Below are positions 26,294 to 63,601 of a stretch of DNA of 64,000 bases, piece by piece. The position numbers and the translations under genes are program-made. The first letter of the stretch is position 1; each line of letters starts with the position of its first letter. Below the pieces are notes generated by a model. It worked only from the letters and a program-made list of their open reading frames with translations. It was not told the DNA's origin and did no database searches. Source of the DNA: Corynebacterium faecale. GTDB taxonomy: Bacteria; Actinomycetota; Actinomycetes; Mycobacteriales; Mycobacteriaceae. Location of the stretch: assembly GCF_030408735.1 (NCBI RefSeq), contig NZ_CP047204.1, positions 1,054,001 to 1,118,000 on the forward strand, read 5' to 3'.

Positions 26294-27307
26294 ATGATTC
26301 AAATCGAACTGAAACTCGAGAACATTTATCAGTTAAATGTATCTGTAGCCACGGATGCCTCAAAGGTTGCTTTTCACCTCTATTCAGGCAAAGAAAAGCT
26401 TAAGGCGACAGACTATTCAAATTCTACAAATCATATCTTCTCCTTGGAAAAGCCAGGAAATTACCGAGTTCGAGTTCTCACTCAAAAAACAGGTACGAAA
26501 AAGGTCGGTATGTCGGATTTCATACGATTTGATGGATTCCCAAGTTTGCAGGAGAAGCGGGACGGTCGACCAATTGTAGTGCACGGCCTATCAAAGGATA
26601 GTATTTCTGCTGCGAAAATTTTTGAGCTAAAGAGTACCGTGGCGGGAATCATTGACCCAACCGGAACACATGTAGGTTCTTCAGTTTTCGGATTCCCGAT
26701 CATTGCTTCCCCTCCTAAGGATTCGATAGTCGCCAGTTTGGAAAAGTACTTGATACCAGCTGGGGACCACGCTGTTCAAACCTTTCGGCTAGAACTAGGG
26801 GCTGATGATCTCTTGTCACGTCATTTGAATAAGATTCGAGCGATGAGTATTTATCGATTAGCTCACGGTCTCTATCTAGAGGGAATGGAAAAACAAGCTC
26901 ATTTTCTAGAGATGTTTGTGCTTTCTAAATTTAACTCTAGAATTCCTTACCAAGCAGTAATTGGAGAAGGGACAGAGTTGGGTGTAGGCGGGATTGGAGT
27001 GGCAATCCATCCTAGGGCTGTGATCGGTCGCGGTTGCACGATTGGACAGAACTCCACCATCGGAGGGCGATCCAGACACCAGATGAACTTTGAAGTTGGG
27101 GACAACGTCTATATTGGCCCCGGAGCGAAATGTGTGGGAGGAAAAATCGGAAGTAATGTTGTCGTGGGCGCCAACGCGGTAGTTACCAAAGAAGTTCCGG
27201 ATAATGTCGTAGTGGCTGGCGTTCCAGCCAAGATAATCAGCCGGAACGTCGAAGATTACCGAGGATATACTCACCGGTCTAGGGACCGAAACCGCCCGTC
27301 GCTTTAA
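26294..27307 (+). CDS. Left-handed beta-helix acetyltransferase with N-terminal accessory domain
   Basis: 337-aa cytoplasmic protein. Residues about 1-80 form a beta-rich module ending EKPGNYRVRVLTQ, a domain that recurs at the C-terminus of the heparinase-hydrolase at 33384. The middle (about 95-215) is unassigned. The C-terminal third is a CysE/NeuD-like hexapeptide acetyltransferase: AIHPRAVIGRGCTIGQNSTI, YIGPGAKCVGGKIGSNVVVG, and VVVAGVPAKIISRN. It probably O- or N-acetylates a sugar of the locus polysaccharide. It is AT-rich compared with the core genes and is framed by the 49-bp inverted repeat, cut off from the rest of the locus by IS debris. Confidence 0.78.
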   Translation: MIQIELKLENIYQLNVSVATDASKVAFHLYSGKEKLKATDYSNSTNHIFSLEKPGNYRVRVLTQKTGTKKVGMSDFIRFDGFPSLQEKRDGRPIVVHGLSKDSISAAKIFELKSTVAGIIDPTGTHVGSSVFGFPIIASPPKDSIVASLEKYLIPAGDHAVQTFRLELGADDLLSRHLNKIRAMSIYRLAHGLYLEGMEKQAHFLEMFVLSKFNSRIPYQAVIGEGTELGVGGIGVAIHPRAVIGRGCTIGQNSTIGGRSRHQMNFEVGDNVYIGPGAKCVGGKIGSNVVVGANAVVTKEVPDNVVVAGVPAKIISRNVEDYRGYTHRSRDRNRPSL

Positions 27308-27411
27308 AACATGACAGCATGGAATATGTTATGCACGATGTCGTGAAAGAACACGTTCCGTTTAGGAGTTGACGCGTTCGGCTATTTAGTACCGGTTTTC
27401 TGCGTAGTGGG

Positions 27412-27460
27412 TGTAAAGTATCAGCACCTTGTGCACATCAGTACCAAGGGCATGGGGCCT
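27412..27460 (-). repeat. 49-bp inverted repeat, right arm
   Basis: Exact reverse complement of 26163-26211 (TGTAAAGTATCAGCACCTTG at its left edge). It directly abuts TGTCAAGCCCCGGG, which looks like an IS3-type terminus. Confidence 0.95.
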
Positions 27461-27563
27461 TGTCAAGCCCCGGGTTTTGTAGAGGGTCATTTACTTAAAT
27501 ATCAAGCCGCTTGAGCCAGGCGTTTCGTCCAGTCCTGGTGTGCCTCCCGTGGCGATCGGTAAC
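27461..27563 (-). pseudogene. IS3/IS481-type transposase tail remnant
   Basis: The minus strand encodes YRSPREAHQDWTKRLAQAA and a stop, resembling the extreme C-terminus of integrase-core transposases (GYRSPxE motif). It is followed by a TGTCAAGCCCCGGG end at 27461. Only about 100 bp remain. Confidence 0.5.
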
Positions 27564-27597
27564 CTGCGCCCGTATGGTGATTTGAGACAGGGTCTAG
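27564..27597 (+). repeat. Solo left end of the IS3 element found at 52821
   Basis: 34 bases identical to 52821-52854 (CTGCGCCCGTATGGTGATTT then GAGACAGGGTCTAG). There it is the left end of a nearly complete IS3 element. Here the element is cut at a CTAG where an IS701-type end begins. Confidence 0.85.
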
Positions 27598-27903
27598 TAG
27601 TACTTCGTTAGGTAGGTGCGCGCCCGCAATACGGGCAGCACCCCAACAACTCGATGACCATCGATTGAAGTTCGGCGAGGACAGCATAGAAACTCACCCC
27701 GCCACCTGGGCTTTTGGGTCGGTGGCGGCCAACCGTTGCTGGGTGACAAACAAATGCGCGGCCGTGACCAACGTGGTGTGGTGATGCCAGCCCAACCAGT
27801 GCCGACCCTCGAAATGATCCAGGCCCAACCCGTGTTTGAGTTCACGATAGTCATGCTCGATCCGCCACCGAATCTTGCCTAAGCGCACCAACTCCTCAAG
27901 GTC
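27598..27903 (-). pseudogene. IS701-type transposase C-terminal remnant
   Basis: The minus strand encodes KIRWRIEHDYRELKHGLGLD, HFEGRHWLGWHHHTTLVTAA and VTQQRLAATDPKAQ, the C-terminal catalytic (Glu-containing) part of IS701-family DDE transposases, followed by GVLPVLRARTY. The element end TAGTACTTCGTTAG abuts CTAG, the favoured IS701 target. The other side is cut off by the IS256 element at 27904. Confidence 0.8.
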
Positions 27904-29370: not shown

Positions 29371-29394
29371 CACCAAACGCCGACGCGCGTCACA

Positions 29395-30032
29395 TCGCGT
29401 TGAAGACATTGGCCACCACCTACCGGGATTTGCACAAGCAGGGCAAAAAGCTGGAAGAACACATCAGCATCCTGGTTGAGGCAATCAATCCACATGTGAC
29501 CTCGATATTTGGCAGTGGTGCCGTGGTGGCGGCTGATCTGATCGTCAGTGTTGGGGAAAACCCAGGCCGGATTCACTCCGAGGCGGCTTTGGCTCATCTG
29601 TGTGGGGTCGCACCGATTCCGGCTAGTTCGGGGAGGACTCATCGGCATCGTCTCAACCGGGGTGGGGATCGGCGGGCGAATTCTGCGCTGCATCGGATTG
29701 CGTTGGTGCGGATGCATTATGACCAGCGCATCAGGGACTATGTAGCCAAGCGTACGAAGGAAGGACTATCGAAAAGGGAGATCTTACGGTGTCTGAAACG
29801 TGCCATTGTCAGGGAAGTCTACCGGGTGGTCTGCCTGGGCCAACCTGTTATTCCAACGGGCCAAGTAGGGGTCGATGAGCTCAAAGCCCGACGAGTCGAG
29901 AGGCAGCTGTCGCAGGCTAAGGTTGCGGAAACACTCGGGTGTGCCCCGGCGAGGATCAGTGATATCGAAACCGGCAAGCGTCCTTTGCCAGAGTTGAGGT
30001 TGGCTTATGAGGAACTTCTCAAATCAGCTTGA
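29395..30032 (+). pseudogene. IS110-type transposase C-terminal half with XRE tail
   Basis: About 210 residues corresponding to the C-terminal half of the complete IS110 transposase at 38361-39590: LKTLATTYRDLHKQ, the Tnp_20 region HLCGVAPIPASSGRTHRHRL, and RRANSALHRIALVRM. It ends with the same helix-turn-helix, LSQAKVAETLGCAPARISDI then ETGKRPL. The N-terminal DEDD half was removed by the IS256 element. The element's right end (GCTTGACACAACATAAGAGC) follows the stop. Confidence 0.85.
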
Positions 30033-30212
30033 CACAACATAAGAGCATCACCCTCGATCGGAAAGAGCACGACTGGTAAATGTTACTTCCCTGATGCTTT
30101 ACTCCACCTAACCAGATTCTGCACCCGAGAAGAATAAAGAAAACACCGCTAGTTTTTCTTATATCGTGAAGATATTAGAGTACCAGTTACCGAAAGTTAC
30201 CTCTTTCGGTCC

Positions 30213-30965
30213 CTACAGCTCCTTGGACTGTTTGGTTCCTACCACGAACTCGTCAATGTGGTCAGCCCACCAAAAATACAGGTCGTCTACAAAATGGTAA
30301 AGTGCGGGACCCCACCGATGAGAATCTGAAGAAAGCACTAATTCAGATGGAGGTGATGGCGTAACTGCGAATCCTAAACTGTTAAGAAGTTCATAATAAG
30401 GCGCTTGAATATCCTCCCACTCACTAGCTTTCCGTCCTTTCGAGAGGGGAACCTCTTTCCCCAAAGTGGTGTGTGTGGCGAAAGGGGTTTTTAGAACCAA
30501 GGTACTTTCAATTATGCCTAGCTTACTAAGTTGGCGTTGTAGTTTTCTGGCTCCGATCTCGAACAAGCGAAAGTGCCTCGGTGTGCCCATCTCAATTCTT
30601 GTACCGTGGCGAATTGTGTTAAGGTAACCAGACTTTTTCAACTCGCTGCTGTGGGTAAGGTAGGTGGTGCCTTCGATAGGAACAACACCCCAGTGCTCAG
30701 TTGCGATATCGATGATGATGGCATCGGAATCAGGAGCCCATCGTCGTACAGCACTACCTAAATTAGAACTGATATCACCCATAACAGATCGTTTATCGAA
30801 ATTATGATCTAGTCCAGGAAGATCCTCGGGCATTGGTAGCGGCGGAGCGAATGAAGACGCAAAAGTTTGTCTCGCGACATACTGACTAACTCGGAAACGA
30901 TTCTGGGTCACCCTCACAATATCTCTAGAAACGCATGAGCCATAAATGAAAAGATTGGTGGGCAT
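30213..30965 (-). CDS. DUF6270 family protein
   Basis: 250 aa, soluble. It starts LFIYGSCVSRDIVRV, the DUF6270 signature (hydrophobic strand, then GSCVSRD). DAIIIDIATEHWGV and the C-terminal HRWGPALYHFVDDLYFWWAD (a conserved His near the end) give an SGNH-hydrolase-like order of Ser and His. Members often sit in capsule or teichoic-acid loci and may be sugar O-acyl esterases or transferases; this is inferred. It is the last gene of the minus-strand unit wzm-wzt-heparinase-hydrolase/GT, 33 bases behind the preceding gene. AT-rich codons. Confidence 0.75.
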   Translation of the reverse strand: MPTNLFIYGSCVSRDIVRVTQNRFRVSQYVARQTFASSFAPPLPMPEDLPGLDHNFDKRSVMGDISSNLGSAVRRWAPDSDAIIIDIATEHWGVVPIEGTTYLTHSSELKKSGYLNTIRHGTRIEMGTPRHFRLFEIGARKLQRQLSKLGIIESTLVLKTPFATHTTLGKEVPLSKGRKASEWEDIQAPYYELLNSLGFAVTPSPPSELVLSSDSHRWGPALYHFVDDLYFWWADHIDEFVVGTKQSKEL

Positions 30966-30998
30966 GTGGAAAACTGGTCCTTTAGAACTTTGATTTGC

Positions 30999-33284
30999 TC
31001 ACAACATGTGATAAGTGAGTCGGTTTATGAAAATTTCCGCATCAAGTTTTTTATATTTCAGGATCTTCACGCCCCAACAATAAACCTGATCTGGAAGCAC
31101 TACCATTTCTGAGATTGCACGCCGTCCTCTCCTAGTTGTAAGCGCACGAAAATGGCCAATTTCTGGATTGCTTGATATTGAAAGGCCCGGAGCATTTACT
31201 GCCGAATTTATTGGTCTACCATCTTTCTCTCTCAGATCAAATGCAAGCAAGGCATTCCGTGGAATGGACCCTGGACGAACATCGAGATCGAGCGAAATTT
31301 CAAAGCTGTTAAGTGGCTCGCTAAAGAGAAATTCATCTAGCTCACTAAGCTCTATTCGCGCTTCCTGTAAAACAGTACTTTTTGGAACGCGTACAAACGG
31401 AGCTACAGCAGGAAACTGTCTGCCGAATTCATCGATCGACCTCAGAGATTCAAACTGGATCAATTCCCGTTTTAACCGCTTAATTGGGTCTGCTTTAGCA
31501 GACCGATTGAGTTCAGTATCCTGACTCGGATGCCTCAACCAGATATAGGATGGGCTTTTGCCATCAAGGATTACAGGGGCAGTTCTATCTGAAAGATTGT
31601 GGGGAGTTGGCTTCGGAGCTATTATCGATCCATCTGATTCTAACCTGCACACCGATAGTAATCCGATCGCAATCATCGGGCGGTGCACTTCTCGAACTAC
31701 TGATAGTTCCTTAGATTCCCAGATTCCTGTGAACCCTGTGGCTAAAGACACTCTCATGCCGACAAAGGGATCAGCCAAATACCTAGAGATCTGTTCGAAA
31801 TAGTCAAGACCGAGAATGTCGTCGTCATCTAAGCGAAAGAGCCCGAAGACCCCAGGCTCATCCAAGAGTTGCTTCGCAAGACTGACGGGATCCATCACTT
31901 TTGAAAGCTCCGATACCTCATCCAAGATTAGAAACGGATAGGTTTTCGCAGCTGATGTAAGAAGTCTCTTGAATTTTTCAGGCATACTTTCGGAGTAGGA
32001 GAGTATATGTTTGTATTCGAATCCCTGAGAAGCCAGATTCAATTGGGGTAATGAAATATTGAGAAAGACGTCCGCGCGCTGGGTCAGTCGTTCGTCAGAG
32101 AATAAGTAGTTCTTATACTCCTGATCGTTTGAGAAACGCGACCCATTGCTAGCTTTCCAAGCAACAGAATTGGGGCTGTAAACGCTGAATTTGGTGCTTC
32201 CAATTATCAAAGTTTTATCCTTCTTAAGATTTGAGGAGTCCACCTGCCGTTCCTTAACCATAGTCACGCTCGTAGGCTCTTCGTTCGAGTTTTGTCGTCT
32301 GCCATCTGTAGAACCCAGTTCAGTTTTTGGGTTAGAGTGTCTAGCTTCAGATAGTAACCTCGTCAGAGTGGCAGGCTCATTCCTAGTCTCGTTGATAGGA
32401 ATACCTGCTTTAGCTGCCTCCTCCAAATCGGCGCGGAAAGCCTGAAGGGTCCGAAGTGAGGAAACTTGCGTGCCTACCTTTTGAAGACCTTCAGCCCAGT
32501 TAGAAGCGTCAATTAAGGCATGGAGAGTTTCAGATCTCTGAGGTCCTGGCATGGCCTTATGCCCACGACCCCAATCGCCAAGTATGACCGATACCTTCTG
32601 GTTGCCCTCGTTTTTTACTATGTATGGAACCATTTGAAAACCGAAGTAGTTTTCGTCGCCAATATTCTGTATGTAAAGAACATGGTTCTTAGCACGACCA
32701 TTTACGAGAGCCTTCTGTCGATCCAACTCTGAGTAAGATTGCCGGGGGAAAAGTAATCTCTTATTAGTTCTGAAAAAAGTCTTACCTACAAGAATATTGA
32801 CTCGGGGGTTTATAACGCAGCTGAGTGATTCTGGAAAAAAATCTCCAAACTTTAGCGCAGGGAATCCCCCACCTGATACCCCAAAAAAAATTATTCTCCG
32901 ATCCTTGGCAAACTTGTGAACAATTTTTCTCATAACATCGAAAAAATCATGATCGTTGCGGCCAAGACAGTAGTTCGTGGAAATTTTTGTGCTCGCTGCG
33001 ACTGAAGGATCGGCGAAAGCAAGAAGAGAAACGCCTAGTTTGCTTGCCAAACCGCGTCCTTCCATCTTTGGAACTGTAGATTCAACCCCCACCGCTGAAG
33101 AAAAACATACCAACAGAACGTTTGAGTCCTCGGAACGTTCCTCATAAATGAAGTCAACAATCTCACCTTGATTATGAAATGAGTAGTGTCCGGAAACAAT
33201 ATTGCTGGTTAAGGCATCAGCGAGACCTTCACGCTTCTGAGAGGTTAGATCTGCATACCAAGACGTATCTCGGACTCTTTTCAC
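30999..33284 (-). CDS. Alpha/beta hydrolase - glycosyltransferase fusion
   Basis: 761-aa cytoplasmic protein with three parts. Residues about 35-260 form an alpha/beta hydrolase of the accessory-Sec Asp2/XcbB type, with nucleophile elbow FFGVSGGGFPAL (Ser137), NIGDENYFG (Asp210) and GDWGRGHKAM (His242). Residues about 355-640 look like the putative rhamnosyltransferase family (PF11316-type), with FLNISLPQLN and the acidic metal motif FRLDDDDILGLDYF (about 486-489). The last ~100 residues are a beta-rich accessory domain (LLAFDL ... GLSISSNPEIGHF) that also ends the protein encoded at 54950. It probably adds a sugar to the locus polymer and removes or moves an acyl group. Confidence 0.72.
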   Translation of the reverse strand: MKRVRDTSWYADLTSQKREGLADALTSNIVSGHYSFHNQGEIVDFIYEERSEDSNVLLVCFSSAVGVESTVPKMEGRGLASKLGVSLLAFADPSVAASTKISTNYCLGRNDHDFFDVMRKIVHKFAKDRRIIFFGVSGGGFPALKFGDFFPESLSCVINPRVNILVGKTFFRTNKRLLFPRQSYSELDRQKALVNGRAKNHVLYIQNIGDENYFGFQMVPYIVKNEGNQKVSVILGDWGRGHKAMPGPQRSETLHALIDASNWAEGLQKVGTQVSSLRTLQAFRADLEEAAKAGIPINETRNEPATLTRLLSEARHSNPKTELGSTDGRRQNSNEEPTSVTMVKERQVDSSNLKKDKTLIIGSTKFSVYSPNSVAWKASNGSRFSNDQEYKNYLFSDERLTQRADVFLNISLPQLNLASQGFEYKHILSYSESMPEKFKRLLTSAAKTYPFLILDEVSELSKVMDPVSLAKQLLDEPGVFGLFRLDDDDILGLDYFEQISRYLADPFVGMRVSLATGFTGIWESKELSVVREVHRPMIAIGLLSVCRLESDGSIIAPKPTPHNLSDRTAPVILDGKSPSYIWLRHPSQDTELNRSAKADPIKRLKRELIQFESLRSIDEFGRQFPAVAPFVRVPKSTVLQEARIELSELDEFLFSEPLNSFEISLDLDVRPGSIPRNALLAFDLREKDGRPINSAVNAPGLSISSNPEIGHFRALTTRRGRRAISEMVVLPDQVYCWGVKILKYKKLDAEIFINRLTYHML

Positions 33285-33383
33285 TTTGGTTCAACTTTCA
33301 GGTCAGAAATATATTATTTGATAATTCAAAAATGTAAAGGCGGTTATTGCTGAGCTAACTTTCTTTGCACTTGAAGTCCTCAC

Positions 33384-36041
33384 TCATAGTTTAATTTCAA
33401 CCGGTTTTGTGCCAAAAGCCTGCCGGGAATTTTGACCGGGGAGTTCCGCATAAACGCGGACTCGGTAGATCCCTGGCTGGGGTATCTTCCATACAGCCGT
33501 ACCTCCCGCGAAACGGACAAGCGAACCCACCTTATTTCGACCATTAAAAAGTTGACCCAAAGCCGATGCGCCCTCCGGAAGGGCCACAGCAACGCCTAAC
33601 TCTTTCTCATTGCTGTCGTAGCTAGTAACATTCGGTAGAATAAAATCTGATCCTTCACTTCTACTTCTTGACAGCGTTTGGACGAAATCGCGAAATACCG
33701 ATCCAAATGATGAGTGTGGCGCCCCGGGCAGCGTGAGGAGTTCAGTGGTATACCCCGAAGCGCGGGAGTCATCTACGAGCGGGATTACATGATTTCGGTA
33801 ATGCCCATCCTTTTTGCCAACGATAACTGTTATGTCGGTATTTCTAACTCCAGAAGCAAGAATGCGGCTCGCAATTTTGTTACTCCAATAGACATCATTA
33901 TGAGAGGTTCCACCAGCGAGGTATTCCAGAATATTGGGATGGGGCTTCTCTAGGAAGTTGCCGATTAGATATTGAGGTGCACCCGCATAAACATGCCCTA
34001 CGCCCGCGCTCACTCCATGTAGTAGTGCAGAGGTCCCGCCCTTAGACGAGCCTAACGTAAACACGTTCTTCCACGAGAGATCCATCGTGTTAACAAGTGT
34101 CTTGATCAATCCTTGGACACTTCGGAATTCCGCTAAGTTTCTTCCCGATGATAAATAGTACGAACCTTGATCTCCGAAGTCATCGAGAATGTAAAGGACA
34201 CGACCATCAAAATCTTTTAAAGAGTTTCGGTAATTAAACGTAAAGTCACCAATTTCATGAACTGCTGAGAACACGACTGCTAGTTCCGTTTTGGACTTCT
34301 CTGCCCGGTCTTCTAACAAGTAATGTACCGGCTTTTCTCCCCAATATGTCTTCCATTCCGAGGAGAAAGGGGTTACGCCCCGGTCATCTAGGAGGAAGTC
34401 ACTAGTTCGCAAGGTCCAGCGAATCTGTGCAGCGCTGCTTTCGAACTCTACCTCGATAGTATAAGAAGGCTCTCTTGTACCCATCTCAGGAAACTTCCAC
34501 CCCTGAACTCGGGGATGCCGTTTACCTAGGAACTGCTGAACTGAGACGGCTGGTTCACCTTCCCATTGCATTTCCGCTATCTTCTTTTCCGTGACAACAC
34601 TGTAAAATTCAATGAAGTTTCCCCTTAAAAACGGAATTACTTTCGCACCCAGATGCCAAAGAAAAGTTAACGAGCGGGGGTTTTTTGATGTAACGTCATC
34701 GATTACCACTAGCGCAGGTTGGCTTCTGTCGGAGAAGTTTGCGATGACGCGCCGACTCCATTCCAACTGACGATACCTCCCAGTTTGTCCGGTTACATCT
34801 AAGGTTGTTTCAGTAGCCTCATTAGTTGTAAGGGTGGTTAACTGAGATTTGTCATCTGTTCTGGGCAATCCTTGACCGTCAACAATTAGCGTATTATGAG
34901 CGAAGCTTGAGAAGGCGAACTGGGTGAAGGGATCATCATATTGGTAGCCGTTCGGGCCAGCTTCAGCCAGTATTTCGTGTCCATTCGCCGCATAATAGAT
35001 ACTTAGTTCGTCGGAATGCTTGTGGTAGTCGGCGTTGTATGCAGCGCTGAAGAAAAGATAGGAATCGTTTATCGAGGTCCAGCCTGAGCGGCCGATGGCA
35101 TACCCTGATTCCTCCGCTACAAATACATTTTCTTCGGGTAGCTTTCCCTCTACTCCACTCGTGAGTGCTCCAAGAAAGGCACCATCTTTAAACGTTGATC
35201 GCGCCGCAGCTGGGGTTAGTTCACCCAATTTTGTGTCACTGATGGGGGGGAAAGTTCTAAATGGTGTCACAGAAAATGCGGCATACAGATCTGCTTTGGC
35301 CATCACTGTTTCGAGATTCTTAAATAGCTGTCCATAACCACGATATTTCGCGTACTCGACAACTTTTACCAGATAGCGTGACACCATAACGTGATATGTG
35401 GGGTTATTCTCCGTATGAATACCGTCGCTGGTAAAACACTTAGCGAAGTACTCGTGAAGGCGGGTGAAAGCACGAGTTTCAAACTTAATAGATTCGTTTC
35501 CTGCAAATCCGTAATCTGTGGCAACGAGAAGGGCTATGTCCTGAAACATTCCGTGGTTATTGAGACCAGCATAAAATTCCTCTGACTGCAATAACAGTAA
35601 ATCGCTTTTCAGTTCGGCATTTAGTAGTTCGAATAAATCGTCGGGTAGTGCCTTCCGGAAAGTGTGCAGGAGCATTACAAACATCATGGCTCGTTGCGCA
35701 GTAGTCTCGTCGTGGTAGGCCATTGAACCAGTTAGCGAGGAACGGTCTTTCCAAACACGAAAGACTTTTTCTATTTGTTGCGACAGGAGAGAGGTTTCAT
35801 CATCGGTCAGTAGTTCGGCAGCAGAGTACCAAGATGGTGCAAAAAGCCAACCGTGAGCTTTGCGGCCCTCAGCCCTAGGCTCGGACGGGTCCCATATTTG
35901 ACCTGTAGCAATACGCACAGGTTCGCTGGGGTTTATTTCTACAGTACCGCTCCGAATAAAAGTTTGAACTTTTTCTCGAGCTATTTCGGCATCTAGAAAT
36001 GGAACAAACATTTCACCTGAGATGTGGGGAGGTTGAGTCAT
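33384..36041 (-). CDS. Heparinase II/III-like lyase fused to an alpha/beta hydrolase
   Basis: 885 aa, no signal peptide. Residues 1-555 match the heparinase II/III layout: an alpha/alpha barrel with GLNNHGMFQD (Asn161-Asn162-His163) and NPTYHVMVSRY, then the beta-sandwich with DYHKHSDELSIYYAANGHE and SSFAHNTLIVDG. Residues about 560-795 are an alpha/beta hydrolase with FTLGSSKGGTSALLHG (Ser666), GKKDGH and APHSSFG (His776), of the XcbB/Asp2-like kind. Residues about 800-885 are the small PGIYRVRVY domain also found in the acetyltransferase at 26294. A paralogue with only the lyase part is at 61937. It lies downstream of wzm-wzt. A cytoplasmic lyase in an export locus may trim or release the nascent uronate polymer. 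Confidence 0.8.
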   Translation of the reverse strand: MTQPPHISGEMFVPFLDAEIAREKVQTFIRSGTVEINPSEPVRIATGQIWDPSEPRAEGRKAHGWLFAPSWYSAAELLTDDETSLLSQQIEKVFRVWKDRSSLTGSMAYHDETTAQRAMMFVMLLHTFRKALPDDLFELLNAELKSDLLLLQSEEFYAGLNNHGMFQDIALLVATDYGFAGNESIKFETRAFTRLHEYFAKCFTSDGIHTENNPTYHVMVSRYLVKVVEYAKYRGYGQLFKNLETVMAKADLYAAFSVTPFRTFPPISDTKLGELTPAAARSTFKDGAFLGALTSGVEGKLPEENVFVAEESGYAIGRSGWTSINDSYLFFSAAYNADYHKHSDELSIYYAANGHEILAEAGPNGYQYDDPFTQFAFSSFAHNTLIVDGQGLPRTDDKSQLTTLTTNEATETTLDVTGQTGRYRQLEWSRRVIANFSDRSQPALVVIDDVTSKNPRSLTFLWHLGAKVIPFLRGNFIEFYSVVTEKKIAEMQWEGEPAVSVQQFLGKRHPRVQGWKFPEMGTREPSYTIEVEFESSAAQIRWTLRTSDFLLDDRGVTPFSSEWKTYWGEKPVHYLLEDRAEKSKTELAVVFSAVHEIGDFTFNYRNSLKDFDGRVLYILDDFGDQGSYYLSSGRNLAEFRSVQGLIKTLVNTMDLSWKNVFTLGSSKGGTSALLHGVSAGVGHVYAGAPQYLIGNFLEKPHPNILEYLAGGTSHNDVYWSNKIASRILASGVRNTDITVIVGKKDGHYRNHVIPLVDDSRASGYTTELLTLPGAPHSSFGSVFRDFVQTLSRSRSEGSDFILPNVTSYDSNEKELGVAVALPEGASALGQLFNGRNKVGSLVRFAGGTAVWKIPQPGIYRVRVYAELPGQNSRQAFGTKPVEIKL

Positions 36042-36190
36042 GAAAATCCTAGTTCTGCTTGATTGTCAGCATATTTACTCAGCTAATAGTACCTATCGCT
36101 GCTGTCTACTAAAGCATCGACCAAGGGAGCGGATGTGAAAACTGGGTCGCTAGTTCCCTCGCGCCGACTACTGAACACTATAAGTGCTAG

Positions 36191-37024
36191 TTAGAATATT
36201 GATCCCCGTTCTATTTCGTCGTCGAAAACTGGAAATGGCGGCGTATATTCTGAAGCTGAGGACCGCAGTAGTTTATCCGCATCGTCTAAATCACCTGAGT
36301 TTATTCGACGACTCCAGTTTCGATATAGTTTGGTGACCCGGCGAACGTTCCCGTCCATTACGATTTGTCCATCGTGTATCCAGATCGCTCGCTCACACAT
36401 TTCGGCGATTTGTCCCGCAGAGTGCGACACTAGGAAGAATGTACCGCTTTCTGCGATGAGAGATTCAGCTCTACGCTTGGCTTTATCTGCGAAGGCTGCG
36501 TCGCCGGTAGACAGGGCTTCGTCTACCAAAAGAATCTCCGGTCTAATTGAGGTTGAGATTGCAAATTTAAGCCTTGCCCCCATTCCGGAAGAGTAAGTGT
36601 TCATTGGCAGGTAAAGGGAATTACCTAAATCTGCGAACTCTGATATCTCGTCGAAAGCCGCGGGGATTTCGCTGGGAACCATGCCTGCGGCCAAGCAACC
36701 GATCCGAATGTTCTCCGCTCCGGATAGGTTAGGCATCAAAGCTGCGGAGACACCCAAGAGTTGCGGTTGTGCGCTGGTAAAAATTTGTCCACTCGAGGGA
36801 GATTCCCCGCCTGAGATGAGACGCAATAATGTCGATTTTCCCGAGCCGTTTCTGCCTATAACTCCAACAGATTCTCCAGGTCGGACTATTAGTGATACAC
36901 CTCGCAAGGCGTGAACAACTGATTTGGCTCTAAAAAACTTGCGCTGGGAGCTTGAACTACGGTCTGCTTTTATAGCATATTCCTTTGTTGCATTCCGAAC
37001 TACTATTGATGCTTTATTGGACAT
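36191..37024 (-). CDS. wzt: Polysaccharide ABC exporter, ATP-binding subunit
   Basis: 277 aa, start ATG at 37024 (MSNKASIVVRNATKEYAI). It shows Walker A VIGRNGSGKSTLLRLISGG (about 66-84), signature TYSSGMGARLKFAIST, Walker B PEILLVDEAL, and the H-loop LVSHSAGQI. This is the Wzt/TagH class (ABCA2-type polysaccharide and teichoic-acid exporters). The usual C-terminal carbohydrate-binding domain is short here, so the polymer may not need capping for recognition. It overlaps wzm by 11 bases. Confidence 0.9.
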   Translation of the reverse strand: MSNKASIVVRNATKEYAIKADRSSSSQRKFFRAKSVVHALRGVSLIVRPGESVGVIGRNGSGKSTLLRLISGGESPSSGQIFTSAQPQLLGVSAALMPNLSGAENIRIGCLAAGMVPSEIPAAFDEISEFADLGNSLYLPMNTYSSGMGARLKFAISTSIRPEILLVDEALSTGDAAFADKAKRRAESLIAESGTFFLVSHSAGQIAEMCERAIWIHDGQIVMDGNVRRVTKLYRNWSRRINSGDLDDADKLLRSSASEYTPPFPVFDDEIERGSIF

Positions 37025-37952
37025 TGATGTACTTCTCCTCAGCTCGCCAAAAATACCAAAACCCGAAGAGGAAAGTTCCAAAACTCCACGCTGAAAGGTA
37101 CAGAAAAGACCCCAATGAAGGGAGTGTGGCATAAATAACGCAGCCTCTAAAAGCCTGCAAGAACTGATAGGCAGGATTTGCAATCATAATTTGCTGAAGT
37201 AGCGGAAACGTATCGAACCGTTCCACTGAGAAGAAGACGCCTGAAACATAGAACCAACCTCTCCGAAATACTGAAAAAAGCTGCGCCAGATCAGGAATAA
37301 AGGCCACAGTTCGTGCGACAATTAAGATCATGCCAAGAGCGAAAAGATGAAGTAGAAGGTAGAGAGGAAGAATAAAAACGATCCTCCAGGTCGGAGGATG
37401 GCCAATCTGTGTAGCTAGCGCGAAGACTATAGCGACGAGAGCAGGAGCAAAGTTTTCTAAGAGCTGACGCACGATAGTGGAGAAAGCGAGAGCAGCTCGA
37501 GGAAACGTGAAGGATCTGATCATGTTTTTAGATCCAGAAATGAGTCCGGTTCCAGCTGACAGGCCTTGCGTCATGAATCGCATGAAGATCACGCCGATAA
37601 CAAGATAACCGAGGAAGTTCTCAATTCCGCGGGATGTTTGTAAAATTAGGCCGAAAATTACTCCGTACATTGCGGCATCGATGAACGGAGAGATAATCAT
37701 CCATGCGTTTCCAAGAGCCAGGCGGCGATTTTTTTGTAGAACTTGGCTACTACCGCTTGCCCAAATAAAGTGTCGACGAGCCCAAAGCTGTCGGCAATAT
37801 TGAGGGAGACTAGGGCGTACCCCAAGGATGGAAAGCCCAGCTCGATCAACGTGTTCAATTACTGGGTCATTGGTAGAGAAGTCAGGACTTTTCTCTACAG
37901 TTTTAAAAATTGACTTTTGCTTCTTGCGATTCATCATCTTACTGTTTTCCAT
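37014..37952 (-). CDS. wzm: Polysaccharide ABC exporter, permease subunit
   Basis: 312-aa ABC-2 type permease with about six membrane spans after a ~90-residue basic cytoplasmic N-terminus: NAWMIISPFIDAAMYGVIFG, FLGYLVIGVIFMRFM, APALVAIVFALATQIG, RIVFILPLYLLLHLF. The C-terminus is the typical YLSAWSFGTFLFGFWYFWRAEEKY. It is of the Wzm/TagG family that exports lipid-linked O-antigen, capsule or teichoic acids. Its end overlaps wzt. It is first in the minus-strand unit. IS3 debris begins 130 bases upstream. Confidence 0.9.
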   Translation of the reverse strand: MENSKMMNRKKQKSIFKTVEKSPDFSTNDPVIEHVDRAGLSILGVRPSLPQYCRQLWARRHFIWASGSSQVLQKNRRLALGNAWMIISPFIDAAMYGVIFGLILQTSRGIENFLGYLVIGVIFMRFMTQGLSAGTGLISGSKNMIRSFTFPRAALAFSTIVRQLLENFAPALVAIVFALATQIGHPPTWRIVFILPLYLLLHLFALGMILIVARTVAFIPDLAQLFSVFRRGWFYVSGVFFSVERFDTFPLLQQIMIANPAYQFLQAFRGCVIYATLPSLGSFLYLSAWSFGTFLFGFWYFWRAEEKYINVQ

Positions 37953-38337: not shown

Positions 38338-38360
38338 AGTTGCGATGCTCCTATATCGTG

Positions 38361-44249: not shown

Positions 44250-45662
44250 ATGAAAAGTATTCCTCCTGCGTATTATTCGCTAATCTCGATGGTTGTATCC
44301 GCAGTGCTGGGTCTGCTCCTGACTATCGCCCTCCCTCTCGGGGTCATTCCGGGTAATTCATCCACGCGCTTAGATGATGAGGAGAGCACGAACATTCCAT
44401 CACTAGTGGAGACTACTTTGGCTACCTCCGTCGATGGTCCGACAACCCCACCGTCACCTACTTCCGAACCAACCTTCTCAGGCGCACCTACGACTGCAGA
44501 AACAACCTCGGAGGCGACAACTCAAGTGCCAACAACGGCTGCCCCCGAGCCTGAAAACACTCTTCCACCCCTGGATCAAAGAGAGAGCGTGATAGCAGCA
44601 GGGCTAGCGCAACGTGGTGAGATCATTGGCACCGGTGGGAAACCAGCAATCGCACTGCGTTTCGATCACCACCTGGATGATTTTAGAGTGAAAGTCTTGC
44701 CAATTCTTGAGAAATACCGCCTGCCGTGGGGGCAGATGATTAACTCCGGGCACCTCATCGAATCAGAAGCCACAAGTTTCCATGAGCTCGCGCGTATGAC
44801 ACATGACTATGGCGGAGAGGTATGGAACCATGGATGGTCGCATACCAGCGTATATTCCGCGGAAGAAGCTGACCGGGAAATTACCCAAGGGTTGGTGGAT
44901 CTTCGCGCCGGACTACCGTCACTTTGGGTTGATGGATGGGCGCAACCTGGGCAATCCGATTATATGGGGCTAGACCGTACACCTTTCGCTCCAGAGCATT
45001 ACTACGAGACCTATCCTGGTCGCCTTGTGCTAAGTCAGCACGCTTTCGTGCGTGGTTACTATCCAGGTGTTTTTCACGAGCTGAAAGGGCAAAATTTGAT
45101 TGGTCAGGCCCATGTCACCATTGATAAGCAGGTTGATGGTCGAATCAACTCCTATGTTAGGCGCGCGGTCAGCGATGGCACTGGAGTGACGTTGATGCTG
45201 CACCCGAATTACTTGGATCTTCCGGGGTATCTCACGACTGAGGAGCTTGATAAGTCACTGGGATACATTGCGTCTCTTCGTGATCAAGATCAGCTGGAGG
45301 TGCTGTCTAACACCGGTATTCTGATGGCTGAGGATGACCTGCCCGAGGACTATGGGGACCTACTTACAGATGCAAGTGGCGGAGAGCTTCGTGGGGAGTG
45401 GGAAAGCGAGGTGTCTCGAGCCCTAAATCATCTGGGGGTTCCTCATGAAGCTGAGGTCTGGGTTTCCGGTACCGGTACCGCCATCCTCACCGTTGAGGTG
45501 GAGTCCGGTAGCTACCCCGTGGTCAGGACACATTCGGTCGAGCTGAAAGATGAGCCACAGCGAATGTCCGTGGTATTGACAGCGCCACTGGACACCACCT
45601 CTGTAACGGTGAGATTAACTGGCAATGGCTTACACGACGGGATCAGCTACCAACCCCTTTAA
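44250..45662 (+). CDS. Membrane-anchored polysaccharide deacetylase-like protein
   Basis: 470 aa. An N-terminal signal anchor (YSLISMVVSAVLGLLLTIAL, about 9-28) and a Thr/Pro/Ser-rich spacer (about 45-115) place the domain outside the membrane. Residues about 130-330 fit the NodB/carbohydrate esterase 4 fold in relaxed form: AIALRFDHHLDDF for the metal/catalytic Asp motif and EVWNHGWSHTS with the H-x3-H metal pair. The remaining ~100 residues are beta-rich (TAILTVEVESGSYPVVRTHS). It probably de-N-acetylates the exported polymer or cell-wall glycan. The G+C is nearer the core genome than that of the neighbouring GT gene. Confidence 0.75.
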   Translation: MKSIPPAYYSLISMVVSAVLGLLLTIALPLGVIPGNSSTRLDDEESTNIPSLVETTLATSVDGPTTPPSPTSEPTFSGAPTTAETTSEATTQVPTTAAPEPENTLPPLDQRESVIAAGLAQRGEIIGTGGKPAIALRFDHHLDDFRVKVLPILEKYRLPWGQMINSGHLIESEATSFHELARMTHDYGGEVWNHGWSHTSVYSAEEADREITQGLVDLRAGLPSLWVDGWAQPGQSDYMGLDRTPFAPEHYYETYPGRLVLSQHAFVRGYYPGVFHELKGQNLIGQAHVTIDKQVDGRINSYVRRAVSDGTGVTLMLHPNYLDLPGYLTTEELDKSLGYIASLRDQDQLEVLSNTGILMAEDDLPEDYGDLLTDASGGELRGEWESEVSRALNHLGVPHEAEVWVSGTGTAILTVEVESGSYPVVRTHSVELKDEPQRMSVVLTAPLDTTSVTVRLTGNGLHDGISYQPL

Positions 45663-50589: not shown

Positions 50590-51849
50590 TTAGAGCCAGA
50601 GCCCCTTCGTATCGATGATTGTCTTGCCCTTTAGCTGAGTTGCACTGACTTCCTTGAACTCGCGGTGATCGACGAGTACGACCACGATATCGGCGTCAGC
50701 AATAGCCTGCTCATAAGGAGTCAGTACAGCGTTCGCTTTGCCATCGAAGTCGTTTGGGAGCTTTTCCACGTTAGGCTCTACCGCCAGAATGGTCTGCTCT
50801 GGGAAACGAGCGGCCAGCTCCTTCGTGATGTTAAGAGCAGGGGACTCGCGGAGGTCGTCAATGTCTGCCTTGAACGCGAGACCAAGGGTTGCAATCTTCA
50901 CGGTGTTGGGCTGGCTGCCAGTGAGTGCTTCTGCGACCTTTTGGATGACCCACTCTGGTTTGTTGTCGTTGACTTCGCGCGCGGTGCGGATCAGACGTGA
51001 GTTCTCTGGATCTGCGGCAACGATGAACCACGGATCCACGGCAATGCAGTGGCCTCCGACACCGGGACCAGGCTGAAGGATGTTGACGCGCGGGTGGTGG
51101 TTTGCCAGTTCGATCAATTCCCAGACATTGATGCCTACCTTGTCACAGATGAGGGAAAGCTCATTGGCAAAAGCGATGTTCACGTCGCGGAACGAGTTCT
51201 CAGTGAGCTTTGCCATCTCAGCAGTCACAGCATCGGTGGACAGCAGCTCACCGGTACAGAACGATGCGTAAATCTCCTTAGCACGACGGGTCGCTTCCTC
51301 TGTTTCACCACCGATAATTCGATCATTGGTAATCAATTCCTCCATGGCCTTACCTGGGAGGATTCGCTCAGGGCAGTGCGCAAAGTAAAGAACCGGTTTG
51401 TTCTCTGGGTTGGGCTTACCATCAGCGATAAGATCCGGGCGAAGCTCCAGAATCCTTTCTGCCATGCGACGGGTAGTATTCGGTGGGGAAGTGGACTCGA
51501 GGATGACAAGCTCATCGCCTTCAAGCTTCGGTGCGATGGATTCAGCAACCGAGTAGATGAACTTCATATCCACGTTGTAGTCATCAGTGAACGGCGTCGG
51601 CACTGCGACGATGTATGCGTCAGCGTGAACCATATTGGTGGTTGCGCGGAACTTGCCGGATTCAAGAGCAGTTTTTAGTCCTTCTTCCAATCCTGGTTCC
51701 ACGATCGTGATGATGCCTTGGTTGATTCGCTGGATGTTGTCTGCATTAACGTCAACCCCGGTTACGTTAATGCCGCTGTTGGCCAGCACAACTGCAGTGG
51801 GAAGACCAATGTATCCGAGTCCAACAAAAGCTACAGAGGGGTCAGTCAT
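50590..51849 (-). CDS. wecC: UDP-N-acetyl-D-mannosaminuronate dehydrogenase
   Basis: 419-aa NAD-dependent four-electron dehydrogenase that oxidises UDP-ManNAc to UDP-ManNAcA. It shows the N-terminal Rossmann motif VAFVGLGYIGLPTAVVLANSG, then AVPTPFTDDYNVDM, ESTSPPNTTRR, AEMAKLTENSFRDVNIAFAN, and the WecC-type catalytic block GPGVGGHCIAVDPWFI with the nucleophile Cys. The C-terminal domain has LGLAFKADIDDLRESPA. The VGGHCIAVDPWF form separates WecC from UDP-glucose dehydrogenase. No UDP-GlcNAc 2-epimerase (wecB) lies in the window, so the precursor must come from elsewhere. It supplies a uronic acid donor for the locus. Confidence 0.88.
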   Translation of the reverse strand: MTDPSVAFVGLGYIGLPTAVVLANSGINVTGVDVNADNIQRINQGIITIVEPGLEEGLKTALESGKFRATTNMVHADAYIVAVPTPFTDDYNVDMKFIYSVAESIAPKLEGDELVILESTSPPNTTRRMAERILELRPDLIADGKPNPENKPVLYFAHCPERILPGKAMEELITNDRIIGGETEEATRRAKEIYASFCTGELLSTDAVTAEMAKLTENSFRDVNIAFANELSLICDKVGINVWELIELANHHPRVNILQPGPGVGGHCIAVDPWFIVAADPENSRLIRTAREVNDNKPEWVIQKVAEALTGSQPNTVKIATLGLAFKADIDDLRESPALNITKELAARFPEQTILAVEPNVEKLPNDFDGKANAVLTPYEQAIADADIVVVLVDHREFKEVSATQLKGKTIIDTKGLWL

Positions 51850-54494: not shown

Positions 54495-54515
54495 CCGAAC
54501 GGCATTGGGCCTAAC

Positions 54516-54949: not shown

Positions 54950-56140
54950 ATGGAAAAAATTAACTATTTCGGTCTGAATTCCGACAGTGCATCAGACGGT
55001 TTTTACAAGGCTCTATTCGGAGAATATTTTGGCAATCAGTCCCTGCGCGATGATGAAGCTCTAAATATAATAGTAAGTCCGTCTGACGATCTTGTGACAG
55101 TAGATGGGGATCACGGTGACGATACTAAAAGAAGGACAATTGTATTTGGATCGGGGTTCAAAGCACCACTTGATAGGATTCCTACCGATTCCGCCCTGGA
55201 CTTCTCAGCTGTCCGCGGATATCTAACCTTGAACCGCTTGCCCGCAGTAGTAGAAAGATCTGCGACTGTGGGGGATCCCGCGCTTTTAGCGGTTGATTTA
55301 CTTGGTGAGGTCGCTCGTGGTGGAAACGGACTTGGAATAATTCTGGATGTGGCCGACCGTAATTTTGAAACAAATTCAACCACAGAAAAGTCCTTAAATG
55401 CACTAGCAGCAACTGTAATTCCACTTTCGAGTTTTCAAGAAATTGGTTTAATAGAAACGATAGAGTATATCGCGAAGTTGGATTACATTATTAGCGACAA
55501 TGTGGTGGGGCTCGCCATCGCGGACTCTCTCCGTATTCCCAGTGCCTGGTTTGATCGTGGGGAAGTCGGTTCCACGAGGTTTGAAGTGATGGATTACTTT
55601 TCAAGTGTATCCAGGGCTATGGCAGCGGTTGTGAAAGAAATTCCCAGAACGGCAGACGCACTTGCGAAGAAAACGCGCTTAGCGGCTTTCTCCGCAGTTG
55701 ATGAGCGGATGTCAATGCTTCGTAATGAGGTTGATCGAGTGCGAGGGTTGCTAGATTCAAAGCCCGTAGAACTCCTTCGCGAACAGGTGCGTATCGCCGA
55801 CGAGCTTAGACTTGAGATTCCTGCAAAGTCAGGAAAGATGATTCTTGAGCTTGCCGTCGAAGACTGGACGCATTTCAGCGAAAAGCAGTATTTGATATCG
55901 TTTGACCTAGTTAGCACAGATAATAGAGCTGGAAAAGTTCGTGGCTCGGTTCCTGGATTTTTCCTCTCTCAAAATCCGAACGTCGGATATTACAAGTACT
56001 TAGTTTTAAGCCCTGATGATAAGCCAGTTACTATGGCTGTTGATTTCCCAGAAGCTATTGCGTGCGTCGGTTTAAGGATCCGCAAGTGGGCAAAGAACGC
56101 TCCAGATATGACGATTAAGCAGCTCCGCATTCTGAGATAA
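54950..56140 (+). CDS. ExoV-like polysaccharide pyruvyltransferase with accessory domain
   Basis: 396-aa cytoplasmic protein. Residues 1-230 follow the polysaccharide pyruvyl transferase pattern: IVFGSGFKAPL, AVRGYLTLNRLPAV, TVGDPALLAVDLLG, VIPLSSFQEIGLIETIEYIA, and LDYIISDNVVGLAIADSLRI then PSAWFD. It would add a pyruvate ketal from PEP to a sugar. Residues about 235-290 are helical with a coiled coil. The last ~100 residues are a beta-rich domain (YLISFDLVS ... FFLSQNPNVGYYKYL ... GLRIRKW) that also ends the hydrolase-GT fusion at 30999. It lies 41 bases ahead of the GT gene at 56182, so they are probably one operon. Confidence 0.75.
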   Translation: MEKINYFGLNSDSASDGFYKALFGEYFGNQSLRDDEALNIIVSPSDDLVTVDGDHGDDTKRRTIVFGSGFKAPLDRIPTDSALDFSAVRGYLTLNRLPAVVERSATVGDPALLAVDLLGEVARGGNGLGIILDVADRNFETNSTTEKSLNALAATVIPLSSFQEIGLIETIEYIAKLDYIISDNVVGLAIADSLRIPSAWFDRGEVGSTRFEVMDYFSSVSRAMAAVVKEIPRTADALAKKTRLAAFSAVDERMSMLRNEVDRVRGLLDSKPVELLREQVRIADELRLEIPAKSGKMILELAVEDWTHFSEKQYLISFDLVSTDNRAGKVRGSVPGFFLSQNPNVGYYKYLVLSPDDKPVTMAVDFPEAIACVGLRIRKWAKNAPDMTIKQLRILR

Positions 56141-56181
56141 TTCCGACTATTGCAATAAACCCCTATTGGCTGGAGAAACTA

Positions 56182-61002: not shown

Positions 61003-61066
61003 CTAGGCCTCTCTTCATGCGCGATTGAAAGCAATGTAGTGTCAGAGAAGATCCCCCGTATCCAGG

Positions 61067-61444
61067 CTAGATGATTGAGTCCAAGGGTGTGCTGGGGTAG
61101 GTATGGCAAAACGACCTGCCCGGGCTTGTGGCCGCATCGGGGCGCAGCCAGTTCGACAGGTATAGAGCCATGACCATGCGGTCCCGCCCGTCCGGGCCTG
61201 TGATGGTGGGGACCGAGTCGTGGGCCAGTAGGTGCCGCAGCCGGGTGGTGTCGAGGTGTCCGCAATTGATCGCGTCGTATAGGGCTCCGTGTCCGCGGTG
61301 GTGCTTAGCTTCCAGTGACAGGTGCGCAAGATCAGTCACCGGTGTAGTTGAGCACGCGACGGTGTCGGTGAGTTCGAATAAGGTATCTCCCCGGCAGGTG
61401 AGGCACATGTAGTACCCGGTCCGAAACCGGTCGAGGCGTGCCAC
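61067..61444 (-). pseudogene. IS701-type transposase N-terminal remnant
   Basis: The minus strand encodes FRTGYYMCLTCRGDTLFELT, LAHLSLEAKHHRGHGALYDA and ALYLSNWLRPDAATSPGRSF, the N-terminal third of actinobacterial IS701-like transposases including the first catalytic Asp region. It breaks off at about 61067. Confidence 0.75.
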
Positions 61445-61936
61445 TTAGCGTCGGGGTGGCACTGAGGGTGCTGGACGGTTGATAATCATGAGGCGGCCGC
61501 CGTTTCTTTCTTCTTGTGAGGTAATAAGAAGCATCAGCAACGACGGCCGCTTTTCCTTTTCTGACACGCCGCGCCAGCACAAACCGAGCATAAACCGTAA
61601 CCCCAAAGGTTAAACGACAAGCTGAGAATAGACAGAAAAATACTGCCTAAACCCGTGCCATAATTTAGCTAATGTTAGTTCATGAGATTTTCATATTGAT
61701 TGTTTTTGAAGACACAAACATCCCTGGCATCTTGACATTGTATGCTCAGAACAGAGAATCTGATGCCAGATATTCCGAAACACAAAAGTTAGTAACCGAC
61801 ACCTAATGGACATGAGATCTGGGTTGGTCCGATTTTCTAAACGGATTGCCGAAGCTGTTTTCCGATCGAGATAGGATAGACTTATGTATATCTATCTATT
61901 TTAAGAGATTATCCTAAACATGAAAAGAGTTGTCAC
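61445..61936. other. Gap with IS701 end, hairpin and AT-rich promoter region
   Basis: 492 bases without a gene. The left part is IS701 debris with a large hairpin (GCGGCCGCCGT at 61493-61503 and ACGACGGCCGC at 61540-61550, followed by TTTTCCTTTT), which could act as a terminator. From about 61620 the sequence becomes very AT-rich and is the likely promoter region of the heparinase-like gene. Confidence 0.5.
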
Positions 61937-63601
61937 ATGAATTATTCAGCTCAACAGAAGTTAGCGCAGAATTTTCTGCCGACCATGCCGTCGCCGTATG
62001 GGGCCAAAAATCTGTTTAAAGACTTCTTGAAAAGCGATAATCTCTATTTCTCATCGAAAGAACACGTTCCCTATGCAGATGGAGCCCTGTGGGAAAGTTC
62101 GCAGTCGAGAAGTGCAGGGAGGAAAACTCATGGCTGGTTCTTTCTTCCAATATGGGCCTCCGCATTCTCTGAGCTTAATGAAGCCGACCGATTGATCTTG
62201 TCCTCAAGCTTTGACAGGTTATTCAATCGATGGCTGGAAAAATCCAAAGATCCCAAGACTATGGTTTTTCACGATGAAACCACAGCTCAGCGTGTGATGA
62301 ACCTAAGTTTCGCATTGCATACCCTTCAACCTGTTTTGAGCAAAGAGACGAGGAAAGCCGTCGATGCGATTATTAAAAGAGACCTCGTGCTGCTTTCCAC
62401 TCCTGAATTCTACGCAGGGGTCAATAATCACGGCATGTTTCAGAATATGGCGATTCTATTCGCCCTTTCTTATGGTCATTGTGAAACTCAATCGCGAGCG
62501 CTTGAGGATTTCGCTTTAGCTCGGTTGGCCGCCTATTTTGTCTCTTGTTATACCGCAGACGGCATTCACAATGAGAATAATCCCTACTACCATATGGCGA
62601 TTTCCAGGCATGTGAGGTCAGTATTGGATTATGCGGAATCTTTAGGGAAGGGCAATTTTTTTGGTTCCCTGCGGTCAGTCTTCGACCACGCGGATGAGTA
62701 TGCGGCATTTTCGTTGACCCCTGGTGGTCATTTCCCTCCTATCAGTGACACTCTAGTCAGACCTATTTCTAAACGAGATGCCATTAGAACTTTTGGTAAC
62801 GGCTGGCTACTGGGCGCAGTTACCGGCGGGGATGAAGGTCGCTTGCCTACAAAGAAAGTGTTCGTTGCTGAAAGCAGTGGTTATGGAATTTGTCGCACGG
62901 GTTGGACTGGTGAGTTAGACACCTATGTATTTTTTCACGCTGCATATAATTCGGACTACCATAAGCACTCTGATGAGCTAAGTTTGTATATCTACGCTAA
63001 TGGGCACGAGTTAATTACCGAATCTGGGACTCATGGATACGAACGAGACCACCCCTTCACCAAATACGCTCATTCCAGTTTTTCGCACAATACGCTCCTA
63101 GTTGATGGAGCTGGTCTGCCCCGAACTGACAGGCAGAAGGCTCACTTGACATCTCTTAGTGATACTGGAAGCAGCGAAGACTGTCTTGATGTCACAGGTC
63201 GCACACTAAGGTTCGAAGGAGTCGACTGGACTCGGCGGGTGCAAGCATCTTCGGATTCGAAGCTGGGGCGTCCGATAATAGTGCAAGACCGGATTTTGTC
63301 CGAAAAAGAGCATAGTTATACGATTCTTTGGCACTTTGGCTCTGAACTGGTAAGTCAAGTGGTTGGATCGACTGTAGAGCTGCGTCTGAGGGACTCAGGG
63401 GTGAAAGTTTGTGAGATGGGATTGTCGGGAGCTGAAGTTCTCTCGATAGAAAAGTATCGCGGAGAAACTCAACCTAGTGTCCAAGGTTGGAAGTTTCCGA
63501 AGCCGGGAGAGGCAGTAGAGGCTGATTGCTTGCAATTTGAATTCTCCGGAGTATCAGTAGAAATTGATTGGACCATATCTCTAACAGGCTTCTCTGAATA
63601 G
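61937..63601 (+). CDS. Heparinase II/III-like protein, stand-alone form
   Basis: 554 aa, no signal peptide, start ATG at 61937. It corresponds to residues 1-555 of the fusion at 33384 and stops exactly where the hydrolase module begins there. Shared blocks are GRKTHGWFFLPIW, VFHDETTAQRVMNLSFALHT, GVNNHGMFQNMAILFA (Asn-His of the active site), NNPYYHMAISRH, DYHKHSDELSLYIYANGHEL, SFSHNTLLVDGAGLPRTDRQ. It probably cleaves a uronic-acid polysaccharide by beta-elimination, or has been recruited to polymer processing inside the cell. AT-rich, like the other sugar genes. Confidence 0.82.
   Translation: MNYSAQQKLAQNFLPTMPSPYGAKNLFKDFLKSDNLYFSSKEHVPYADGALWESSQSRSAGRKTHGWFFLPIWASAFSELNEADRLILSSSFDRLFNRWLEKSKDPKTMVFHDETTAQRVMNLSFALHTLQPVLSKETRKAVDAIIKRDLVLLSTPEFYAGVNNHGMFQNMAILFALSYGHCETQSRALEDFALARLAAYFVSCYTADGIHNENNPYYHMAISRHVRSVLDYAESLGKGNFFGSLRSVFDHADEYAAFSLTPGGHFPPISDTLVRPISKRDAIRTFGNGWLLGAVTGGDEGRLPTKKVFVAESSGYGICRTGWTGELDTYVFFHAAYNSDYHKHSDELSLYIYANGHELITESGTHGYERDHPFTKYAHSSFSHNTLLVDGAGLPRTDRQKAHLTSLSDTGSSEDCLDVTGRTLRFEGVDWTRRVQASSDSKLGRPIIVQDRILSEKEHSYTILWHFGSELVSQVVGSTVELRLRDSGVKVCEMGLSGAEVLSIEKYRGETQPSVQGWKFPKPGEAVEADCLQFEFSGVSVEIDWTISLTGFSE

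Follow-up and report, generated by a model that had tools for sequence, protein, structure and literature searches.

What does a corynebacterium make with an exporter of polysaccharide chains, the enzymes for an acidic sugar precursor and two proteins from a family annotated as one of degraders, for instance as "heparinase II/III family protein"? The question is raised by a gene island of Corynebacterium faecale that begins in the window (the whole stretch of DNA that was analysed, 64,000 nucleotides, C1:1054001-1118000 on contig NZ_CP047204.1 of a 3.15-Mb genome in 5 contigs) and continues beyond it. On balance, this island appears to direct the production of an acidic polysaccharide that contains N-acetylmannosaminuronic acid (ManNAcA), is tailored at C5 by a heparinase domain and O-acetylated in the cytoplasm, and is then exported by an ATP-binding cassette (ABC) transporter of the Wzm/Wzt type. 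A first-pass annotation had proposed an ABC-exported, acetylated and pyruvylated ManNAcA-containing polymer made by fused enzymes; the gene content and its recurrence in other genomes support this proposal except for the pyruvylation, which is discussed below.

The genome contains a single match to the UDP-GlcNAc 2-epimerase family (PF02350), and this gene, a predicted WecB, is located in the island. It follows from the gene content that WecB and WecC would yield UDP-ManNAcA, and that RmlA, RmlB and RmlC-D would yield dTDP-rhamnose; the rml names are assigned from translations, with RmlB alone backed by a further search. A second RmlB copy, 96% identical, is found at 322 kb, so that the island has its own RmlB. 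The 1500-residue glycosyltransferase is probably the chain polymerase, judging from its modular sequence. An ABC-2 permease (PF01061) adjoins an ATPase (PF00005) in the company of glycosyltransferases, which is the arrangement of ABC-dependent polysaccharide export, a known kind of pathway; the Wzt protein leaves no room for a sugar-binding domain at its C-terminus. The genes for Wzm, Wzt, the 885-residue heparinase fusion, the 761-residue glycosyltransferase fusion and the DUF6270 protein form a head-to-tail array on the minus strand (30213-37952, 7.7 kb) with gaps of less than 150 bases.

The heparinase domain of the 885-residue protein adopts the PL12 fold, and the catalytic Asn, Tyr and His are retained: N162, Y216 and H340 (positions counted by hand on the alignment) lie opposite N240, Y294 and H424 of PL12 heparinase, are invariant, and are present in both heparinases of the island. 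The match to the NCBIfam HepC model reaches 21.5 bits, compared to a cutoff of 700, so the protein resembles HepC without being classed as one. The central domain of the same polypeptide has the fold and the Ser-Asp-His triad of the SacC/Asp2 O-acetyltransferases. Many Actinobacteria have this combination of a heparinase-type and a capsule O-acetyltransferase domain. There is no evident signal peptide, the same chain carries the SacC-type domain (structure 6YUS is, by its title, a complex with coenzyme A), and a 1474-residue open frame in another Corynebacterium genome (L077 10886-15307, minus strand) joins a GT4 glycosyltransferase to heparinase II/III; for these reasons, we infer that the heparinase domain is located in the cytoplasm. 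Rather than simply degrading uronate polymers, the 885-residue protein probably serves to tailor a polymer in the cytoplasm; its O-acetyltransferase domain had been overlooked. Matches of the fusion profile to TAL effectors, in which no stretch passes on its own, were set aside as artefacts; they disappear when the heparinase part alone is used for the profile search.

The heparinase module also occurs in duplicate. An insertion sequence (IS) lies about 40-50 bases downstream of the 554-residue heparinase; truncation by this element, though possible, is not needed as an explanation, the module being complete. Two heparinase frames are present in 10 of 82 heparinase-matching loci, some of which overlap one another (L010, L022, L026, L028, L031, L034, L050, L054, L077 and L087), and a Paucisalibacillus sp. 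EB02 protein (L030 9323-13027, plus strand), whose locus also contains WecC, Wzt and WecB, has two heparinase modules in tandem.

A contig scan, which covers up to 10 kb on each side of the heparinase gene, yields 49 related loci, 27 actinobacterial by record title and 22 others; all counts over genomes and loci given here ignore kinship. At identities of at least 38% for WecC and WecB and at least 35% for Wzt, WecB is found in 19/27 actinobacterial vs 4/22 other loci, WecC in 17/27 vs 6/22, and Wzt in 13/27 vs 2/22; the counts are 10/27 vs 1/22 for Wzm, 7/27 vs 0/22 for DUF6270 and 6/27 vs 0/22 for the left-handed beta-helix (LbH) acyltransferase. The giant glycosyltransferase, under the stricter rule of at least 1200 aligned residues, is detected in 19 of the 27 actinobacterial loci and in none of the 22 others; the looser rule of at least 300 aligned residues, which admits ordinary GT4 enzymes, gives 25 and 9, respectively.

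Among 242 genomes of the genus, 18 have matches to the 885-residue protein, with the full fusion in three (that of C. faecale, G104 and G098). The stretches of about 20 kb around the match in the 17 other genomes contain WecC in 9 cases, Wzm together with Wzt in 10 and WecB in 5, compared to none of these in 20 control stretches from ten of the same genomes (a weak, 31% identical Wzt-like ABC match in L106 is not counted); the controls are all internal to the genus and have no bearing on the 27-locus count. A near full-length giant glycosyltransferase is encoded in 7 of the 242 genomes, including that of C. faecale and all three with the full fusion, and in the stretches read, all seven have Wzm, Wzt and WecC nearby. 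Altogether, WecC, Wzm and Wzt occur jointly in at least 12 of the 242 Corynebacterium genomes, C. faecale included, again in the stretches read. The first-pass annotation had considered its proposal refuted should these genes never co-occur elsewhere, and had regarded corynebacteria as not known for such a system; recurrence in actinobacterial and genus loci contradicts the former, and the loci of other Corynebacterium genomes run counter to the latter.

Table 1. Features of the island within the window (positions are those of the window)
Feature	Position	Strand	Matches and domains
LbH acyltransferase, 337 residues	26294..27307	+	N-terminal immunoglobulin (Ig)-like module; Hexapep matches
DUF6270 protein, 250 residues, last gene of the array	30213..30965	-	PF19786, 1.8e-46; 159.3 bits, cutoff 27.5
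761-residue protein	30999..33284	-	Asp2-like alpha/beta-hydrolase (~1-290), PF11316 glycosyltransferase with LDDDD motif (360-590), beta C-terminal module (629-758)
885-residue heparinase fusion	33384..36041	-	PL12-type fold (1-553), SacC/Asp2-type O-acetyltransferase (556-793), Ig-like module (815-881)
Wzt-type ABC ATPase, 279 residues (internal start)	36191..37030	-	PF00005
Wzm-type ABC permease, 312 residues	37014..37952	-	PF01061; galactan permease model, under cutoff
Polysaccharide deacetylase-like protein	44250..45662	+	N-terminal hydrophobic segment; PF01522, 29.8 bits, cutoff 23.1
Giant glycosyltransferase, 1500 residues	45986..50488	+	~3 glycosyltransferase modules
WecC, UDP-ManNAc 6-dehydrogenase	50590..51849	-	NF008286, 564.5 bits, NCBIfam cutoff 459
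Degenerate pyruvyltransferase-like (ExoV-like) protein	54950..56140	+	pyruvyltransferase-like part (~1-266), beta C-terminal module (267-394)
Second multi-module glycosyltransferase, 1009 residues	56182..59211	+	38% identity to the giant glycosyltransferase over 923 aligned columns
Stand-alone heparinase module, 554 residues	61937..63601	+	44% identity to the 885-residue protein; full module, ends at the domain boundary

Computed gene content, recurrence, folds and conserved active-site residues are compatible with the following pathway, in which the substrate, the type of reaction and the order of steps are putative. From the two predicted precursors, the giant multi-module glycosyltransferase would assemble a backbone in the cytoplasm that is attached to a lipid carrier, and enzymes of the PF11316 and GT61 types would attach further sugars, probably rhamnose. 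Before export, the nascent chain may be tailored in the cytoplasm by enzymes that share accessory beta-modules. The heparinase domain would act at C5 of ManNAcA, most likely as a polymer-level epimerase that generates N-acetyl-L-gulosaminuronic acid (L-GulNAcA), less likely as a beta-eliminating trimmer, and the SacC-type domain of the same chain would O-acetylate the polymer. Wzm and Wzt would then export the finished chain. A more far-reaching hypothesis, which we put forward tentatively, is that Actinobacteria possess a counterpart of human dermatan sulfate epimerase 1 (DS-epi1), namely, a cytoplasmic C5-epimerase of the heparinase fold that converts D-ManNAcA to L-GulNAcA at the polymer level, with O-acetylation by the same polypeptide prior to export, and with beta-modules that dock unrelated tailoring enzymes on one polymer.

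Several observations weigh against this interpretation. At the first catalytic position, the protein shares Asn with the PL12, PL17 and PL33 lyases, where DS-epi1 has His205. Many of the 18 matches within the genus are weak; apart from the three full fusions, two are confined to the acetyltransferase part, and the others fall, mostly weakly, in the heparinase part. The heparinase-acetyltransferase fusion is absent from 4 of the 7 genomes with the giant glycosyltransferase, and among the 17 genus loci, 8 lack WecC and 5 lack WecB, WecC, Wzm and Wzt in the stretch read, so that the link between the heparinase and ManNAcA is not a strict one. In the contig scan, 11 of the 22 non-actinobacterial loci, along with 1 of the 27 actinobacterial ones, have none of WecB, WecC, the glycosyltransferase, Wzm and Wzt (E<=1e-8), which indicates that relatives of the heparinase also occur in other settings. 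Finally, the two PF00953 genes of the genome, which are of the initiating type, map outside the island, PF00953 being the only initiating family searched.

In the strongest alternative, a real though lesser possibility, the heparinase domains would instead cleave the same polymer as lyases, so as to trim it, release it or control its quality, e.g., by removing lipid-linked chains that have stalled in the cytoplasm. A lyase with a comparable role is kept in alginate biosynthesis loci. The absence of an evident signal peptide in the 885-residue protein speaks against such an activity, and a domain joined to an O-acetyltransferase of the capsule type, or in another genome to a glycosyltransferase, fits modification at the time of synthesis better than cleavage; both points are matters of argument. 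With a lyase-like Asn in a biosynthetic setting, the sequence does not discriminate between the two reactions, and the epimerase is favoured on balance.

The nature of the product is a separate issue. Instead of a capsule, the island could encode a cell-wall polymer of the teichuronic acid type, whose ManNAcA-hexose repeats are attached to peptidoglycan, like that of Micrococcus luteus. The precursor, UDP-ManNAcA, would be the same, the teichuronic acid of M. luteus is described as ManNAcA-Glc (PMC3005890), and related loci are found in Micrococcus terreus and in several Kocuria records; even so, we consider this alternative a lesser possibility as well. That the island is a decaying relic, its pathway broken by insertion sequences and without a product, is improbable given that, despite the many transposases and remnants between the gene blocks and the degenerate ExoV-like protein, the frames of the heparinase fusion, the giant glycosyltransferase, WecC, WecB, Wzm and Wzt are open and similar in length to those of their relatives, and both heparinases retain N162, Y216 and H340.

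Returning to the proposed tailoring of an exported ManNAcA polymer, the accessory modules are shared between otherwise unrelated enzymes. The 761-residue protein, the ExoV-like protein and a 402-residue glycosyltransferase encoded past the window all end in the same type of module, about 125 residues long, and an Ig-like module of about 65 residues is common to the C-terminus of the heparinase, the N-terminus of the LbH protein (residues 18-72) and DUF6270 fusions elsewhere (L014 and L024); the direct similarity of the latter module is weak (E=0.015) and becomes clear only after iteration in the collected loci. The presence of shared modules on unrelated enzymes suggests that these enzymes bind one and the same polymer or scaffold. 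Two proteins of about 730 residues with no Pfam match, encoded in L117 (6676-8856, minus strand; this stretch also contains the giant glycosyltransferase) and L123 (17106-19307, minus strand), end in the Ig-like module and might be further tailoring enzymes.

The hydrolase part of the 761-residue protein has no Pfam match, but a profile built from it and seven relatives matches Asp2 (6LNW) at E=1.3e-6, and S137, D210 and H242 are invariant in the eight sequences; an hhalign comparison with the heparinase fusion gives a weak probability of 52.8%. The predicted structure is poor (mean predicted local distance difference test, pLDDT, of 54.6), with a C-terminal module that looks all-beta at block pLDDT values of 41-84. 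The fusion is rare, with six proteins found including this one and a single other full-length representative, from C. lubricantis; in other such loci, the hydrolase part is a stand-alone protein. Among the other NCBIfam comparisons for the window, a match to the XcbB/CpsF family stays at 40 bits, below the subfamily cutoff of 125.

The ExoV-like protein is tied to the pyruvyltransferase family PF04230 by one homologue (E=2e-6) and by a 33% match in L016. A Pfam search finds no match in this protein, nor does the genome contain a PF04230 match at E<=1e-3. Where both linking relatives have SLHG, the protein has NVVG; in our own reading, the Leu-His of this motif would correspond to the phosphoenolpyruvate-contacting L338-H339 of Pvg1p, and is replaced by VV. 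Since the conserved Leu-His is missing, pyruvylation of the polymer, as claimed in the first-pass annotation, is poorly supported. The deacetylase-like protein has no counterpart in the 49 related loci, and its membership in the system is uncertain.

The genes that had been listed are all detected in their span by Pfam and NCBIfam searches, and the claims of an AT-rich island and of interruption by IS elements are borne out as well, with a GC content of 46-52% in the gene blocks vs 59.8% in window positions 1-24352, and with blocks parted by transposases of several families or their remnants; the five-gene array, though, is intact. The extent of the locus had been underestimated: the island continues for about 22 kb past the window, with rmlB, rmlC-D, rmlA, a GT61 enzyme, a second PF11316 glycosyltransferase and WecB. 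It spans 66.5 kb from the end of the left shared gene (window 24352, C1:1078352) to odhA (C1:1144848-1148546; L004 7448-11146). An mgtE search over 26 genomes gives matches in 8 genus genomes including that of C. faecale; among the seven others, odhA lies 0.9-4.2 kb from the nearest detected mgtE-side gene in six, and outside the 20-kb stretch in the seventh. The difference could reflect either an insertion in C. faecale or a deletion in the relatives.

A 49-base perfect inverted pair (window 26163-26211 and 27412-27460), adjoined by a transposase-like remnant (~25980-26115), brackets the LbH gene and possibly represents the ends of two IS copies that face this gene, in an arrangement resembling a composite transposon. 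In the downstream part of the island, the second PF11316 glycosyltransferase gene lies between two transposase-like frames, each 1386 bases long and identical in DNA sequence (L003 12770-14155 and 17065-18450), and an IS256 match to C. efficiens plasmids reaches 87.5 and 84.4%. The five proteins scanned on the right flank (L004 2789-6940) have no Pfam match, and five window proteins compared to the PADLOC anti-phage defence models have no match.

The locus makes a predicted uronate polymer of the Corynebacterium surface amenable to testing. If heparinase-family proteins indeed tailor polymers during synthesis, their annotation as degraders is misleading, a new class of uronate-modifying enzymes becomes available, and the relationship between the lyases and human dermatan sulfate epimerase is extended by a bacterial branch with a role in biosynthesis. 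No description of this system was found in the literature searched, a scope from which subscription papers were mostly excluded, and as far as these searches go, the fused heparinase-acetyltransferase is undescribed as a tailoring enzyme.

ManNAcA-type polymers of Actinobacteria have already been published (PMC3005890; PMC13274773). The teichuronic acid of M. luteus and the teichuronic-acid-like utr loci of Streptomyces resemble the predicted product as actinobacterial uronate polymers of ManNAcA or ManNAc3NAcA, but the main text of the paper on the utr loci (PMC13274773) contains none of the words heparinase, Wzm, WecC and ManNAcA. As in the ABC-dependent export systems represented by the galactan and TagH models, an ABC-2 permease and an ATPase are encoded beside glycosyltransferases, but both Wzm and Wzt of the island score below the curated NCBIfam cutoffs. 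SacC, the O-acetyltransferase of the meningococcal serogroup A capsule (6YUO), and Asp2 share the alpha/beta-hydrolase fold and the Ser-Asp-His triad with the island domain; SacC, however, is a separate chain of 255 residues, whereas the island domain lies between the heparinase domain and the Ig-like module. The PL12 heparinase III (HepC; 4MMH and 5JMD) has the same alpha-toroid and beta-sheet fold and catalytic Asn, Tyr and His, at 14-16% identity in structural alignments, but the island protein differs from it in being fused to an O-acetyltransferase, in lacking an evident signal peptide and in its location within biosynthetic loci. Human DS-epi1 (6HZN), which acts on uronates within a polymer, has the same two-domain fold, and by comparison through HepC and PL33, Y216, Y366 and H340 of the island protein would fit Tyr261, Tyr473 and His450; the position of His205, compared through HepC, is occupied by Asn162, which is followed by His163.

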